From contig JAQYWN010000005.1 in the NCBI GenBank assembly GCA_029379265.1, positions 1-32,787 on the forward strand: a DNA stretch of 32,787 bases, given 5' to 3'. The stretch comes from Rhizonema sp. NSF051 (GTDB lineage Bacteria > Cyanobacteriota > Cyanobacteriia > Cyanobacteriales > Nostocaceae). Under the pieces are notes generated by a model, which searched no databases, was not told where the DNA came from, and was given only the letters and a program-made list of their open reading frames with translations. The first letter of the stretch is position 1. Every line of letters begins with the position of its first letter. A program made the position numbers and the translations under genes. Shown piece by piece: positions 24,843-32,787 of this stretch.

Positions 24843-25221
24843 GCTGGGGGTGAGGGCGAGTATTGAGAACCGCCATAGATAAATGAGAGCGCGATCGCAT
24901 ACCACGACTTTTTTAGTAACCATGTACGAAAAAAGAAGATTTCCGTTTCCCCCAAGACGGGAAGGTGAGGAAATGCGATCGCCACTGAACTCACTCGTGA
25001 AATTACTGCCTTGCTTCAGCATATCTCGAGAATTTACACAATTGCTATTTAAACCTTTTTAATCTTTCTCAGAGATATTTCGGATGCTGAAATGTTACAT
25101 CTGAAACTATAACTGTCAAGCAAGTAGTAATAAATTTTATTTTGGCACGTTGGAATTAAGTAGTGAGAAATCCATTCTGACTACCTATTTTCTGCTGCCT
25201 TTACACCAAAACAGGGAAACG

Positions 25222-26886
25222 ATGACAGAAATCTTGACCCCCACACCCGGTTCTATAGTCAGTTGTCGCCGTCGGCAGTGGGTTGTGCTGCCTGCTGAAA
25301 ATAAAGATGTGATTCGATTGCGTCCCTTGGGTGGCAATGAAGACGAAATCGCGGGAATCTTTCAGTTGCTGGGGCTGGAAACTCTTGAACCTGCAATATT
25401 TCCCTTGCCAAGTTCAATTGGGGTCAAAGATCATACATCGGCACTCTTACTGATGGATGCAGCTCGTCACTTACTACGGAGTGGGGCGGGGCCATTTCGC
25501 TGCTTGGGACGGTTATCGCTGCGTCCCCGTCCTTATCAGTTAGTCCCTTTATTAATGGCATTGCGATTGGCAACAGTCAGATTACTGGTAGCAGATGATG
25601 TTGGTATCGGTAAAACTATTGAAGCTGGATTAATTGCCCGTGAACTCTTGGATAGAGGTGAGGTAAAGCGGATTGCAGTTTTGTGTCCTCCGCATTTGTG
25701 CGAGCAGTGGCATACTGAATTACGAGAAAAATTTCATATTGATGCGGTGGTGGTACGCTCGGGTACGGCTTCTAAGTTGGAGAGGGCAATACCTAATAAT
25801 TCTCATATATTTAGTTATTATCAACACCTGATTGTCAGCTTGGACTATGCTAAGGCTGAACGTCGCCGTGCAAGTTTTGTGACACACTGCCCTGATTTGG
25901 TGATTGTGGATGAGGCACATACTTGTACTCGTTCCAGTAATAAGAGTACATCCCAGCAGCAACGTCATCAACTTATTCAGGAAATTGCTCATAAAAGCGA
26001 TCGCCATTTATTGCTCCTGACAGCGACTCCTCACAGTGGTATTGAAGAGGCTTTTCTGTCGCTGCTAGGTTTACTCAAGCCTGAGTTTGAACATGTGAGC
26101 TTAGATAGACTGACTGAGCAACAGCGAACTCAGCTAGCAAGTCATTTTGTGCAACGGCGGCGGGCAGATGTCAAGCAGTGGTTGGGAAATGAGACTCCTT
26201 TTCCGGAAAGAGAATCAGAGGAAAAGCCTTACAAGTTATCGAAGGAGTACAAGCAGTTATTTGAGGATGTCTATAACTTTGCTCGTGGGCTGGTAAAAAC
26301 GACGACACAAGACATGAGCTATGCCCAACGTCGGGGACGTTATTGGGCAGCTTTGGCTTTGATTCGTTGCGTTATGTCTTCCCCTGCTGCCGCAGTCGCA
26401 ACATTAAACCGTCAGGTGAGTAAATCCGGTGGCGAAATACTTGCCGATTTAGACGAAGACTTGATGAGTTCCTACGTCTACGACTCTACAGAGCTTGAGC
26501 AAGTTGTTGATGCACCTCCCACTGTCGTCGTCGAACAGGGACAACAAAGTTATGGTGATGCAGATAAACGCAAACTCAGAGCTTTTGTGCAAGCAGCTGA
26601 TAAGTTACACGGTGAGAAAGACCAAAAGTTGCAATCATGTATTGCTTTCATCCAAAGTTTACTCTCAGACGGTTATAACGCGATTATTTGGTGTCGCTAT
26701 ATTGCCACAGCGAAATATGTTGCTGATGCTCTGAAGCAGAAACTAGAGAAGAAGGGTAGTCAAATTCGCGTCATTGCCATCACTGGAGAACTGTCAGAGG
26801 ATGAGCGAGAAATCCGCCTTCAAGAGTTAAGGGTTTGCGAGTTACTTTTCGCTTGTTTGATGAAAACTGGCGGGGAGAGTATTTAG
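25222..26886 (+). CDS. SNF2-family DEAH helicase, DrmD-like, C-terminally truncated
   Basis: ADDVGIGKTIEAGLIARELL (Walker A), LVIVDEAHTC (motif II), LLLTATPHSG (motif III); second RecA lobe breaks off after DEREIRLQEL, before helicase motifs V/VI. ORF opens at 25150 (TTG); ATG 25222 preferred. Confidence 0.8.
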   Translation: MTEILTPTPGSIVSCRRRQWVVLPAENKDVIRLRPLGGNEDEIAGIFQLLGLETLEPAIFPLPSSIGVKDHTSALLLMDAARHLLRSGAGPFRCLGRLSLRPRPYQLVPLLMALRLATVRLLVADDVGIGKTIEAGLIARELLDRGEVKRIAVLCPPHLCEQWHTELREKFHIDAVVVRSGTASKLERAIPNNSHIFSYYQHLIVSLDYAKAERRRASFVTHCPDLVIVDEAHTCTRSSNKSTSQQQRHQLIQEIAHKSDRHLLLLTATPHSGIEEAFLSLLGLLKPEFEHVSLDRLTEQQRTQLASHFVQRRRADVKQWLGNETPFPERESEEKPYKLSKEYKQLFEDVYNFARGLVKTTTQDMSYAQRRGRYWAALALIRCVMSSPAAAVATLNRQVSKSGGEILADLDEDLMSSYVYDSTELEQVVDAPPTVVVEQGQQSYGDADKRKLRAFVQAADKLHGEKDQKLQSCIAFIQSLLSDGYNAIIWCRYIATAKYVADALKQKLEKKGSQIRVIAITGELSEDEREIRLQELRVCELLFACLMKTGGESI

Positions 26887-29705
26887 AATTGTCGCCTTTA
26901 AATGGTGATTTATTCGGTTCCAATACCCTACAAGCGTTGGATGATTGCGCCATTGATAATCACGATTTACTAGTAGCGATTCGGCATTTGTCGCTGTACC
27001 AACAAAAGGGACAATTGCGACGCGTGAATTATGCTGCTTTGGATGTGGAAGAATTAGGAAGTGTGTATGAAAGTTTGTTGGATTTTCACCCTCAGGTAAT
27101 CCAGCGTCAGGGGTTATATAAATTTGATTTGGTGTTAGGAAGCGATAGAAAAACCACTGGATCTTATTATACTCCACCACAACTCGTCCAACAACTCATC
27201 AAAACTGCATTAGAACCTGTTATTGAAGAGAAGGTTCGTAGTGCTTTACCAGATGCGCTAAAGCGTTACGAACAAGCACTCCTCAGTCTCAAAATTGTCG
27301 ATCCCGCTTGCGGCTCAGGGCATTTCCTCCTCGCTGCAGCACGTCGCCTTGGTAAAGAATTAGCTAAAATCCGCACTGGAGAAGCAGAGCCCGGATATCT
27401 ACCGTTACGCCAAGCAATTCGAGATGTGATTCAAAACTGTATTTATGGGGTGGATATCAACCCTTTGGCAGTAGATTTATGCAAAGTGGCGCTATGGATT
27501 GAAGGCTTTGCTAGTGGGATGCCACTCAACTTTTTAGATCACAGAATTAAGTGTGGCAATTCCCTCGTGGGGGTATTGGATATCAGTTGTCTGGAAGAGG
27601 GAATTCCCGATGAAGCATACAAAGCTGTGACGGGGGATGATAAGAAGTTATCAACACAGTTTAAAAAGCGGAATCAGAAAGAACGGGATAACCAGGGACA
27701 ATTATCGATATTTGAGAAATTGGAAGGCGATCGCGCACAGTATGCTGAAACTGCGCGGGAGTTAGGAGAAATTGCCGAAACCACACCGCAACAAGTCAGG
27801 CAAAAACAAGCGCAATACCAGCAAAGTCGTGAAAATCCCGGTTGGTGGCGAGACTATTCAGCGTGTAATTTATGGACAGCTGCATTTTTTATGCCACTAA
27901 CAGAACATAATTTACAATTATTCCCCACCACAGAAACGCTAACTCAGCTATTGCGGGGTAATTTATCAACGCAAAGGATAGTAGAGGCGGCGAATAAGTT
28001 AGCGGAGGAGAAGCACTTTTTCCACTGGTGCGTCGAGTTTCCTGAAGTGTTTGAGGTGGGTGGTTTTGATTGCGTGTTGGGAAATCCACCTTGGGAACGG
28101 ATTAAGTTGCAGGAGAAAGATTTTTTTGCGGCTCGTAATGCTGATATTGCTAAAGCTAATAAGGCAGAACGAGAAAGATTAATTAAGCTGTTATATAAAA
28201 ATAAGCCAGAGTTAGCACATGAATTTGAGCAGGCAAAACATGATGCTGAGACACAGAGTAAGTTTCTTCGTGAGTCTGGAAATTTTCCAACAACTGCTGT
28301 AGGGGATGTTAATACATATGCTTTATTTACTGAAAAAAAATGGTTGCTTACTAATAAAAAAGGATGGGTTGGTTGTATAGTCCCATCAGGAATTGCTACT
28401 GATGATTCTAACAAGATTTTTATCCAAAAAATAGTAAAAGGTTACGCTCTTGCGAGTTTCTATGATTTTACGAATAGAGGGTATATTTTTCCAGATTTAG
28501 AAAGTACACATTCATTTTCTTTATTAACGTTTTCAAGAAGAGAAGTTAAGGAAGTAAAACTAGCAGCACAGCTATGGAAAACAGATGACATAAGAAGAAT
28601 TGGCAGGGTTTATAGTCTCAAAGTTGAAGATATTAAAAAACTTAACCCAAATACCTTAAATCTTCCAATCCTTAAAACAGTTAAAGATGCTGAATTCATC
28701 AAAAGTATTTATCAAAATGTTACTGTTTTGGTAAATGAAAGTTTACACAATAACCGTTGGGGTATTTATTTCTTACGGATGTTTGACATGACAAATGATT
28801 CTGTGTCCTTTTTCTGTAAGAGAAATCAACTAGAGAAAGATGGATGGATTCTTGAAAATAATTTAATGAAGAAAGACAACCTTACTTATCTTCCTTTATA
28901 TGAGGCAAAATTGACAGACATTTTTAACCATCGTGAATCCACTTTTTCTGGAATCCCAGCGCAAGATATGTATGGTACTCGTCCCCGTACTAATAAAGCT
29001 GACTTAGAACAGCTTCAGAATCCTGACTGGATAGTTTTGCCAAGATATTGGGTGTCTCAAGAAGAGGTTTTAGTAAGAGTTCCAGAATTTTGGAAATATT
29101 CATGGTTAATTGGCTTTCGGAATACTATAAGTGCTGTTGCAGACTCAAGGAGTGTTAGATTTACGATTATTCCTAAATTTGGTGTTGGTAATTCCATGCC
29201 ATTAGTTTTTTCAGATCAAAATCCCAAAAAAGTAAGTGCATTAGTTGCTAACTTTAATTCGTTAATTCTTGATTACGTCGCAAAGCAAAAAGCAAGTGGT
29301 GGAAATTTAAACTTTTACGTTGTCCGACAACTACCCATCCTTCCCCCAGAAACATACACCCCAGAAGACACAGAATTCATCAGTACCCGCGTACTCGAAC
29401 TCGTCTACACTGCTTGGGATATGCAGCCCTTTGCCAAAGACATGGGATGCGATCGCGAACCATTTATTTGGAACAGCAACCGCCGTGCATTATTAAGAGC
29501 AGAATTAGACGCATATTACGCCAAACTCTACGGACTCACCCGTGATGAACTGCGTTATATTCTCGATCCTACTGATGTCTACGGCGAAGACTTCCCTAGT
29601 GAAACATTTCGGGTGTTGAAGAACAATGAGATTCAGCAATTTGGAGAGTATCGCACGCGAAGGTTAGTTTTGGAGGCTTGGGATAAGATGTTCGGTAAAT
29701 CTTAA
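26835..29705 (+). CDS. N6-adenine DNA methyltransferase (Eco57I/PglX/DrmMI-like), N-terminally truncated
   Basis: IVDPACGSGHFLLAAARRLGKELA (SAM motif I), FDCVLGNPPWERIKLQEKDFF (NPPW motif IV); open frame starts abruptly at an unlikely TTG at the junction with the upstream helicase. Confidence 0.85.
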   Translation: MRVTFRLFDENWRGEYLELSPLNGDLFGSNTLQALDDCAIDNHDLLVAIRHLSLYQQKGQLRRVNYAALDVEELGSVYESLLDFHPQVIQRQGLYKFDLVLGSDRKTTGSYYTPPQLVQQLIKTALEPVIEEKVRSALPDALKRYEQALLSLKIVDPACGSGHFLLAAARRLGKELAKIRTGEAEPGYLPLRQAIRDVIQNCIYGVDINPLAVDLCKVALWIEGFASGMPLNFLDHRIKCGNSLVGVLDISCLEEGIPDEAYKAVTGDDKKLSTQFKKRNQKERDNQGQLSIFEKLEGDRAQYAETARELGEIAETTPQQVRQKQAQYQQSRENPGWWRDYSACNLWTAAFFMPLTEHNLQLFPTTETLTQLLRGNLSTQRIVEAANKLAEEKHFFHWCVEFPEVFEVGGFDCVLGNPPWERIKLQEKDFFAARNADIAKANKAERERLIKLLYKNKPELAHEFEQAKHDAETQSKFLRESGNFPTTAVGDVNTYALFTEKKWLLTNKKGWVGCIVPSGIATDDSNKIFIQKIVKGYALASFYDFTNRGYIFPDLESTHSFSLLTFSRREVKEVKLAAQLWKTDDIRRIGRVYSLKVEDIKKLNPNTLNLPILKTVKDAEFIKSIYQNVTVLVNESLHNNRWGIYFLRMFDMTNDSVSFFCKRNQLEKDGWILENNLMKKDNLTYLPLYEAKLTDIFNHRESTFSGIPAQDMYGTRPRTNKADLEQLQNPDWIVLPRYWVSQEEVLVRVPEFWKYSWLIGFRNTISAVADSRSVRFTIIPKFGVGNSMPLVFSDQNPKKVSALVANFNSLILDYVAKQKASGGNLNFYVVRQLPILPPETYTPEDTEFISTRVLELVYTAWDMQPFAKDMGCDREPFIWNSNRRALLRAELDAYYAKLYGLTRDELRYILDPTDVYGEDFPSETFRVLKNNEIQQFGEYRTRRLVLEAWDKMFGKS

Positions 29706-29706
29706 G

Positions 29707-29770
29707 GTTCGTAGTTGCGCTTCAGCGCCTCTTGATCCTGATGAAGATGCGCTGAAGCGCAACTACGAAC
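29707..29770. repeat. REP hairpin 1 (22-nt perfect inverted arms)
   Basis: gttcgtagttgcgcttcagcgc (29707-29728) / gcgctgaagcgcaactacgaac (29749-29770), starting just after the methylase stop. Confidence 0.93.
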
Positions 29771-29832
29771 AAATTATAAGGAATTTGGGGAATATCGTGT
29801 GCGAAGGTTGGTGTTGGAGTCTTGGGATAGGA

Positions 29833-29890
29833 GTTCGTAGTTACGTTGTCTTCGCTCAAGATTTGAATGCGCTGAAGCGCAACTACGAAC
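29833..29890. repeat. REP hairpin 2 (diverged left arm, intact right arm)
   Basis: gttcgtagttacgttgtcttcgctc ... gcgctgaagcgcaactacgaac (right arm 29869-29890). Confidence 0.85.
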
Positions 29891-29897
29891 AAATTAT

Positions 29898-30488
29898 TTA
29901 GCGATCCCAGTCTTTACCGTAATCTTTTAGCGGATATTTAGTCCAACAACTGCGTAACCAATCTCTTCCATGATTTTCTAAATACCAATGAACGCTAGTT
30001 TCAACCCAATTATAAGGAGATTCTGCCCAATTATGTTTTACAGGATTGTAATGAATATAGTTTAAGGTTGTGTAGTAATGTCTTTCAGAACGAATGGCGC
30101 GATCGCTAAAGGAACACCAAACTTTACCAGTGACATTATCTTCAATATTCCATTGGCGGGCAAGAGAACCGTGAATTGAGCGGAATAATTGGCTTAACAG
30201 TTTGAAGTTAACGTTTTTTGTTAACAAATGATAATGATTAGGTAAAACTACCCAACCAAGTATTTCTATTTCTTCATATGTGAACTTTTCAAACAATGCA
30301 TTCAACAGTTGCTGACGACGTTCCTTAGTATTTATCCGACATTTATGTTCATAACAAGTAGTCGTTATCAAGTAAAATTCACTGTCTTGTATTGGATGTG
30401 GTGGCGAGTGTGGAGGATAACCTTTCGCCAATCTTTCTTGAACAAGTGTTCTTTTTTGTTCCTGAGTCAGTTTCCGATATTCGTACAT
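29898..30488 (-). mobile_element. REP-associated tyrosine transposase (RAYT, IS200-like Y1 family)
   Basis: FYLITTTCYEHKCRI; VVLPNHYHLL (HUH motif); LNYIHYNPVKHNW (catalytic Tyr region); flanked on both sides by REP hairpins. Confidence 0.93.
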
Positions 30489-30503
30489 ATGGTATCGTCT
30501 TAA

Positions 30504-30596
30504 GTTCGTAGTTGCGCTTCAGCGCATTCAACTCTCTTTACGAAGACAGCCATCAAGATTCGTAGTTACTGAGAGCGCTGAAGCGCAACTACAAAC
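30504..30596. repeat. REP hairpin 3 upstream of the RAYT gene
   Basis: gttcgtagttgcgcttcagcgc (30504-30525) ... gcgctgaagcgcaactacaaac (30575-30596, one mismatch). Confidence 0.9.
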
Positions 30597-30674
30597 AGAA
30601 TGCATGAATTTTGAATAGCCGTAATAATACGGTTGCGTGAGGCACTCTACTTAAAATAATATCAATAACAAAAT

Positions 30675-32774
30675 ATGAAACTTCCAATAAAACTACAGGA
30701 TTTATTACAGCAGGATGAACGTGCGATCACAGCCGCGAGTACTTTTCTTAGTCAAAAGCTAGCAATTCTAGATTGTACGAGTATTGAGTCAGTTACGCCA
30801 GAACAATTAGCTCTTTTATTCTCTAGCATTCCGGAAATTTGGGATTTAACAGATATTGAAGAAGTGTTGGATTTTTCGACAGTTAATACAATTCTCAGTC
30901 ATCAACTTCGAGAGTGGATTAATAAACGAGGAAGTACAATTCAGTCAAAATCAATTACGAATTATGAATTCAAACAGAATTACCTGGACATTTTCAACTT
31001 CCGGAATGAAGTCATTGGAGACTATCGCCGCTATATTGAAAGCTTCTTAAAAATTCGCGATGCTAAAGTAAAAGCTTTTGTAGATGCCGAATTGGATAAA
31101 GGGCAATTGTGGACTGAACCTTTAATACAACTCAATCCTACCTACAAAAAAGGTGCAATTGTTAGTGAATTGGTGCAACAGCGAGTTCTTCATGAAGAGT
31201 GCGATCGCTACTTCTCTAAATATACTTTCCACTACCATCAAACACAAGCGTTCCACACGGCACAACGTCAAGAACCCTTTGTTGTCACCACAGGAACAGG
31301 TTCTGGGAAAAGCATGACTTACGTTGTGCCTATCTTTAATGATTTACTCCACCATCCGGAAATTGAGGGAGTGAGGGCAATCTTAGTTTATCCTATGAAT
31401 GCCTTAATTAACTCCCAAAAAGAAGAACTCGACAAATTTTTGCGCCAGATTCCTAACACTCACATTCGCGTTGAACAGTACACTGGACAAGAAGATTTAA
31501 CGAAGAAAACCGAAATTCAAAATAACCCTCCCCACATTTTACTGACCAACTATGTGATGCTAGAGTTAATGCTCTCTCGCACTCATGAAAATAAACTGGT
31601 AGAGTCTCCCAATTTAAAATTCCTCATACTCGATGAACTCCACACCTATCGGGGAAGACAAGGTGCAGACGTTGCCATCTTAATTCGCAAACTCCGCCAA
31701 CGCAGCAAAAATCATCATCAAATACTCTGTATTGGCACGAGCGCCACTATGTCAACGGAAGGTTCTCGCGAACAACGCCGTCAAGTTGTGGCGGATGTCG
31801 CTAGTAAGTTATTTGGTGTGGAAATCAAACCTAGCAATGTTATTGATGAAACTCTAGAGCGTTCTATCAAACGTGCTGAACCTACTATAGAGGAACTACG
31901 CCAAAGTATCCAAGCTGGTTTACCAAACGAGTCAGCACAAACGTTGGAGAATTTCCAACAGCATCCCCTCAGCGACTGGATTGAGATGAACTTCGGGTTG
32001 AAGGAAGAAGTCGTCGATGGGGTAACGGAGAATAAGATTATTACTTTCCCAACAAAATCTGCTCGGCTTGCGGCTGCATCTACTGGGAAATACACGACAT
32101 CTTCTCAAAAATCTGTGAGTTATGTTCGCCGTATACCAATTACGCTTCAGGAAGGTGCGGAGAAATTGGCTCAAGTTTGTAGTTGTGTGGCGGCAGATGA
32201 TGAAGATGCGCTGAAGCGCAACTACGAACAATGTTTGAAGGTTCTTAAACAGATGTTTCTGTGGGGAAGTAAGACTAAGGGATTGGCTTTTCGCCTGCAT
32301 CAGTTTATTTCTCAAGGGGGTAGTGTTTACGCCACGATTGAACATCGAGACAAGCGTCTTCTCACTCTTGAAGGTCAGTATACAACGACTGAAGACCGCT
32401 TGTTGTATCCGCTTGTTTTTTGTCGGGAATGCGGACAAGACTATTACGTTGTGCGCTACGATGCTGATAAGCAAATTGTCTTGCCTCAGTTACCGACGGC
32501 GTTGGATGTCAGCCCTGATGATGCAGATATTACTGAAGGTTATCTTACTTTAGATGAACGGGAACTTTGGGATGAAGGTGATGAAGATAGGCTTCCTGAC
32601 TCCTGGTTTAACGAAACTAAGAAGAAAGGGCGGGTTGCCAAGAAGGATTACATGCGGTTTATTCCCCGTAAATTGCAAGTGTTACCTAATGGCAAGACAA
32701 GTTCTCTGTTGCAGGGAACGAGTTGTTGGTTAACTCAGATCTTGCACCTGGAAACTTCAATGTTAATTCCTTGA
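30675..32774 (+). CDS. DEAD/DEAH-box helicase, DrmA/YprA (MrfA)-like; possibly truncated at its 3' end
   Basis: VVTTGTGSGKSMTYVVPIFND (Walker A), FLILDELHTYRGRQGADVA (motif II), CIGTSATM (motif III), VFCRECGQDYYVV (zinc-binding-like); stops at LLQGTSCWLTQILHLETSMLIP. Confidence 0.8.
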   Translation: MKLPIKLQDLLQQDERAITAASTFLSQKLAILDCTSIESVTPEQLALLFSSIPEIWDLTDIEEVLDFSTVNTILSHQLREWINKRGSTIQSKSITNYEFKQNYLDIFNFRNEVIGDYRRYIESFLKIRDAKVKAFVDAELDKGQLWTEPLIQLNPTYKKGAIVSELVQQRVLHEECDRYFSKYTFHYHQTQAFHTAQRQEPFVVTTGTGSGKSMTYVVPIFNDLLHHPEIEGVRAILVYPMNALINSQKEELDKFLRQIPNTHIRVEQYTGQEDLTKKTEIQNNPPHILLTNYVMLELMLSRTHENKLVESPNLKFLILDELHTYRGRQGADVAILIRKLRQRSKNHHQILCIGTSATMSTEGSREQRRQVVADVASKLFGVEIKPSNVIDETLERSIKRAEPTIEELRQSIQAGLPNESAQTLENFQQHPLSDWIEMNFGLKEEVVDGVTENKIITFPTKSARLAAASTGKYTTSSQKSVSYVRRIPITLQEGAEKLAQVCSCVAADDEDALKRNYEQCLKVLKQMFLWGSKTKGLAFRLHQFISQGGSVYATIEHRDKRLLTLEGQYTTTEDRLLYPLVFCRECGQDYYVVRYDADKQIVLPQLPTALDVSPDDADITEGYLTLDERELWDEGDEDRLPDSWFNETKKKGRVAKKDYMRFIPRKLQVLPNGKTSSLLQGTSCWLTQILHLETSMLIP
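32175..32231 (+). repeat. REP-like unit embedded in-frame in the helicase CDS
   Basis: tgatgaagatgcgctgaagcgcaactacgaacaa (32198-32231) is identical to 29739-29772; degenerate left arm gtttgtagttg at 32175. Confidence 0.85.
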
Positions 32775-32787
32775 CTAAGTGCTAGGT

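Follow-up and report, generated by a model that had tools for sequence, protein, structure and literature searches.

In-frame copies of a GTAG-type REP hairpin in a helicase gene and its neighbours within a defence operon of cyanobacteria

The segment at positions 32175 to 32231 (forward strand) of the window, that is, of the whole stretch of 32,787 nucleotides from Rhizonema sp. NSF051 that was analysed, is a GTAG-type REP hairpin that is read in frame inside the gene of a YprA/MrfA/DruE-like (armC-like) helicase. The account judged likely is that a resident REP of this type inserted into a turn of the helicase and was kept because it fitted the frame and was tolerated, that REPs also entered several loops of the two other proteins encoded by the operon, probably in several independent events, and that the operon carried such copies between Nostocales. 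The case belongs to a known kind, namely the intragenic in-frame REPs reported by Di Nocera et al. 2013 (PMC3733652). In comparison with that report, its supplementary gene list aside, three elements are new: the copies are concentrated in a single defence operon, homologous sites have been filled repeatedly across genera, and some genomes have hardly any copies that are not coding. The initial annotation of this DNA recognised the helicase copy and missed the overall pattern, which comprises several sites in three genes, read in one frame, within one operon and in several genera.

The helicase ORF (30675 to 32774, forward strand) encodes 699 aa, of which residues 501-519 (VCSCVAADDEDALKRNYEQ) derive from the REP, whose right arm is perfect and whose left arm is degenerate. 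The unit presents the feature that characterises the GTAG superfamily, a short palindrome that carries GTAG at one of its ends (cGTAGTTGCGC...). Direct comparison confirms that the 34 nt at 32198-32231 are the same as those at 29739-29772, in the REP that follows the methyltransferase (MTase) gene, without any difference, as had been noticed at the outset. The same applies to the degenerate left arm starting at 32175, since the region 32172-32237 can still form a hairpin (z -3.3), and to the frame, which remains open through the whole unit of 57 nt, a multiple of three.

The 22-nt core of the repeat, GCGCTGAAGCGCAACTACGAAC, is present in 6 copies in the window (0.00 expected from 100 shuffles) and at 100 places in the 7.9-Mb genome when up to one mismatch is allowed, while the reversed-pattern control gives 0. 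These copies are dispersed and mostly intergenic, as is typical of GTAG-superfamily REPs: only one of the 98 core contexts examined in the genome lies in a long ORF, that of the helicase, and the next longest frame has 124 aa, so that a general insertion of REPs into genes of this genome can be discarded. In-frame REPs in genes had already been described elsewhere (PMC3733652). Regarding other coding sequences that bear the repeat, for which a genome search had been proposed, the core leads, among these contexts, to the helicase copy as the only one in a long ORF, and an eroded second copy exists in the MTase gene of the window (27234-27275).

The remaining copies of the window surround a RAYT (REP-associated tyrosine transposase)-like gene located at 29898-30488 on the reverse strand, 1.7 kb from the helicase segment. 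Just past the MTase stop codon, an inverted pair of cores (29707-29770) folds as an intact hairpin (z -12.1) with the same frame open (VRSCASAPLDPDEDALKRNYEQ), and represents the source or the sister of the 34-nt identity. Directly after it comes a degenerate duplicate of the C-terminal end of the MTase (KEFGEYRVRRLVLESWDR; 29779-29837, forward strand; score 36, against 16 for the best of 500 shuffles), which suggests that the pair was perhaps at one time read in frame within an MTase end. Two further cores flank the RAYT-like gene (29869-29890, forward; 30504-30525, reverse) and another, with one mismatch, lies upstream of the helicase (30575-30596, forward), so that the gene is bracketed by the same REPs, with cores at 29707-29890 and 30504-30596. 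Its product contains the HUH motif NHYH and the motif YIHYNPVK, both seen in three homologues, and scores just under the cut-off of Pfam Y1_Tnp (21.0 vs 23). A RAYT is the likely mover of these repeats, as the analogy to REPIN-RAYT pairs suggests (Bertels and Rainey 2011, PMC3116915). That study, which includes Nostoc punctiforme among its genomes, describes inverted REP pairs, hairpins and an adjoining RAYT gene, as observed here; however, REPINs are described there as extragenic, and the coding copies have another spacing and another loop than the most frequent class of intergenic copies. In the window's genome, this class has an arm distance of 35 nt (22 of 40 pairs), which is not a multiple of three and hence makes both arms unreadable in one frame, whereas the arms of the coding copies are spaced in multiples of three. 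A search of 29600-32787 against Rfam matched no family.

Alignment of the helicase with its homologues, which come from Nostocales, from other cyanobacteria and from further phyla, shows that the common state at this site is a 9-residue turn, such as LA-EQTQLPEET-C, and that distant homologues are plain there. In the window, these 9 native residues give way to the 20 of LA-QVCSCVAADDEDALKRNYEQ-C, and the net gain of only 11 residues indicates that native codons were replaced by the REP. Filled alleles, restricted to a subset of Nostocales, extend over 15-51 residues and encode RSCASA...ALKRNYEQ or derivatives of it. In their DNA both REP arms can be recognised, nearly perfect in G070 (CGTAGTTGCGCTTCAGCGC...GCGCTAAAGCGCAACTACGAACAA) and likewise intact or nearly so in G139 and G037. 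Two near relatives (92-95% identical) have the same helicase segment; near relatives carry the labels Rhizonema and Scytonema, and the left arm of the Scytonema-labelled one is 15 nt shorter than that of the window. The copy is thus in frame and wholly within an ORF longer than 120 aa that has known homologues, some of them with an empty site. From the initial proposal of a lineage-specific insertion of about 19 aa, the insertion itself stands, given the empty distant homologues; its size is to be corrected to a replacement with a net gain of about 11, and its restriction to one lineage does not hold, as 14 of the 59 homologues placed on the helicase tree contain a version of the insert. A conserved ALKRNYEQ segment in distant homologues, which had been named as the observation that would speak against an insertion, is absent from the alignment. 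The similarity might alternatively be fortuitous, with ALKRNYEQ as a native helicase motif, and in the window only the right arm is perfect. This reading can be dismissed almost with certainty, since a chance match is ruled out by the shuffles (0 expected) and by the reversed-pattern control, an ancestral motif by the empty homologues, and the alleles of G070, G139 and G037 have kept both arms complete or almost complete.

The helicase site is one of several. In-frame REPs occupy three sites of the MTase, site A following HLRQK, site B preceding the DPACGSG motif and site C following LLRx, as well as one site of the SNF2 helicase, which makes about four sites besides that of the YprA-like helicase; empty alleles exist in relatives. 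All coding copies are read in one frame, VRSCASA-loop-ALKRNYEQ. Site B includes the second in-frame segment of the window (27234-27275, forward strand; VRSALPDALKRYEQ), which was not reported in the initial annotation and which, although eroded, has both arms still folding as a hairpin. For the clear MTase REP alleles none of 1000 shuffles was as good, whereas nearly all empty alleles are at chance level. A search for proteins with the REP peptide in 120 relatives retrieved long open frames mainly on the contigs of the helicase. Furthermore, of 171 distinct REP cores taken from nine genomes, the 24 that fall in frames of 200 aa or more all belong to the three genes of the operon, and none of the other 147 is in such a frame; as the operon loci were deliberately included, 24 of 171 is not an unbiased rate. 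This census covered G000 nearly in full, G070, G137 and G096 in full, and a sample of each remaining genome. A REP in a 225-aa ORF of G025 (contig C54) was set aside, as it lies before the likely start MKNFS, where the sequence is probably non-coding.

The simplest history would be a single ancient in-frame insertion into the helicase, inherited vertically and lost many times, with the similar MTase copies as separate events. The grouping of most REP alleles in a few clusters and their common position and frame are in line with it. Nevertheless, in the helicase tree, built from the 59 homologues without the insert columns, the REP alleles require at least five changes, three of which are forced by well-supported branches, and their placement in one clade is rejected by the AU test (p-AU 3e-52), which, recombination aside, excludes one insertion followed by inheritance. 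In addition, the empty alleles retain the native turn that is common to the outgroups (QTQLPxET), and loss of an insert would not restore the turn that it had replaced; simple loss is thus unlikely, and the pattern calls either for repeated insertion or for operons that exchanged segments. In G139, moreover, the helicase insert and one MTase insert bear an arm variant (TAGCGC/GCGCTA) that is also present in the intergenic copies of that genome, which favours some independent insertions. A single ancient origin is accordingly improbable. Insertion has probably been recurrent, to judge from these sequences, and recombination between alleles may have contributed; if empty alleles have displaced REP alleles through recombination, the count of independent insertions could be lower.

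Recombination acquires more weight when the distribution of the copies is considered. The operon carries REPs in genomes that are otherwise almost without them: the helicase insert holds all copies of G137 and of G055 (at most two mismatches), six of the seven copies of G070 are in the operon, and the sole exact copy of G096 is also in the operon. A loop with GATCCnGA ('LDPD') is found in four units among 187 cores, three of them coding and the fourth right after the MTase; the units come from different genes and different genera, but always from this operon. This confinement hints at shared descent of the coding copies, either because coding copies beget coding copies or because recombination exchanges segments. 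Recombination or horizontal transfer of operon segments might thus have spread a few original coding REPs, with the repeat as a passenger of the operon and not as a transposer. This is a serious possibility, though short of an even chance, as it is opposed by the filling of different sites in different genes, by the match of the two G139 inserts to the local REP variant and by the many intergenic copies of Rhizonema-type genomes. A more speculative extension, in which the REP subfamily behaves as a protein-coding mobile element, is rather unlikely: its spacing and loop would keep one frame open, it would spread from coding copy to coding copy within one defence operon and, in some genomes, it would survive almost only there. 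REPs may travel with the defence operon into genomes that nearly lack them, which suggests their use as possible tracers of operon transfer.

In the AlphaFold model of the helicase (mean pLDDT 79.8) the insert falls between the helices 491-502 and 510-534, with a loop at 503-509. To judge from the sequence and from what is generally known of such enzymes, the MTase site B is situated in the linker that precedes the SAM-binding motif. According to the preferred account of insertion into tolerant turns, a copy of the GTAG-type REP, presumably mobilised by RAYT-type transposases, would have landed in the inter-helix turn of the helicase, its left arm becoming a linker and its right arm an extension of the next helix, as modelled. 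It would have been retained because its length and loop fit the one open frame (VRSCASA...ALKRNYEQ) and because the turn tolerates added residues; several loops of the other two proteins would have been filled likewise, probably in several independent events, and the operon would then have moved such copies between Nostocales. Local hopping is supported at most for G000, G139 and G137, the only genomes in which a RAYT gene was seen between the MTase and the helicase. In the case of G137 this gene (L221, 5171-7248), 77% identical to that of the window, lies beside the operon and has no REP-like core within 5 mismatches around it, the sole REP found in the genome being the one inside the helicase gene.

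Whether the peptides are useful is a separate matter. Other dispersed or tandem repeats (NYELRITNYEL, LTPQPPSLQGKGE, YSDTGLL) occupy the same MTase loops (L219, L262-L263, L280-L282), which suggests that these loops are permissive, and the peptides encoded by the REPs may be near neutral. The term domesticated, used in the initial annotation, is not supported, given that the peptide differs between close relatives, in which it also erodes or is lost in part (L077, and MTase site B in G003), that other repeat families fill the same loops and that the window's own operon is broken. A function of the peptide or of the DNA or RNA hairpin within the operon, for instance in RAYT binding, regulation or as a self mark, with selection of the insertions, is unlikely, in view of the decay of the inserts and of the unrelated repeats in the same MTase loops. 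It could account for the extreme concentration in one operon and one frame, for a hairpin that can still fold (z -3.3) and for the retention of copies in genomes with almost no others; against it, the insert is absent from many intact homologues, and a single frame is expected anyway, as the other frames hit stop codons at such unit spacing. Repeated insertion into permissive loops, and not a new function, is the best reading, with the counterpoint that permissive loops alone leave unexplained why only this operon is hit. In G025 (L213:8922-11873) EALKRNYEQ is present four times in tandem inside the MTase, the arm of a coding REP expanding there as a tandem repeat.

The operon corresponds, as identified from its genes and from models of related systems, to the recently described ARMADA defence systems. 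The helicase contains a DEAD domain and an MZB domain, its best PADLOC matches are DruE, and the solved structure closest to its predicted fold is MrfA, a DUF1998/YprA-type helicase. Upstream are an Eco57I/DrmMI/PglX-like (armB-like) DNA methyltransferase (26835-29705, forward strand) and a BrxHII/DpdE/DrmD-like SNF2 (armA-like) helicase (25150-26886, forward strand), so that the three core genes of ARMADA are present according to the PADLOC models DpdE/DrmD/BrxHII, DrmMI and DruE, together with the MZB domain and the MrfA fold. Intact homologous operons of relatives consist of the same gene trio, to which G070 and G096 add a RelE/ParE-GajB-like gene. In the consulted portion of the preprint by Bell et al. 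2025 (PMC12458937), the same composition and gene order are reported for cyanobacterial ARMADA, including a BrxHII/RapA-like helicase, a PglX-like methyltransferase and a YprA-like helicase, and an additional RelE/ParE-GajB-like gene is reported for Type II ARMADA; that portion mentions no REPs, and, unlike the systems described there, the window's copy is degenerate. Its SNF2 gene breaks off after homologue residue ~551 and continues, out of frame, into an MTase gene that lacks the N-terminal ~361 residues, residue 551 running into residue 362 at 26829-26832. If the assembly is right, this join is a deletion and the defence operon is degenerate in this genome. At the other end, homology of the helicase stops at residue 686. 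What follows is the terminal part of a multicopy element (32732-32787, the last 56 nt of the window), with 40 genomic matches that lie mostly at the ends of contigs, which indicates that the helicase is interrupted there. The in-frame state of the REP thus mirrors constraint in ancestors and demonstrates no present function.

Regarding known systems, PMC3733652 describes GTAG-superfamily (GTAG/CGTC) REPs wholly inside ORFs, in frame and in many cases as dimers that encode 20-30 aa, found preferentially in genes for helicases and for DNA repair, and considers that they may be neutral or tolerated in flexible linkers or loops. The present case differs in that at least five sites in three genes of an anti-phage-type operon are involved, with homologous sites filled across genera, and in that some genomes have nearly all copies within genes, a comparison made without the supplementary gene list of that study, so the genes could overlap. 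The Rickettsia palindromic elements (RPE), as cited in the same source, are also palindromic repeats in frame within genes that are probably still functional; they are likened here as a functional analogue, being a different element in a different phylum that is spread over many unrelated genes and not over one operon. A search of the literature, supplements aside, retrieved no account of REPs in ARMADA or Druantia-like genes. The empty, freshly filled, decayed and tandemly expanded sites of three proteins in several genera constitute a natural series, with which the long-standing question of whether inserted repeats are merely tolerated in loops or turn useful becomes testable. Outside the operon, an intergenic stretch of G000 (L123, contig C203), which also includes a run of N, contains REP cores in a tandem array with a spacing of ~73 nt.
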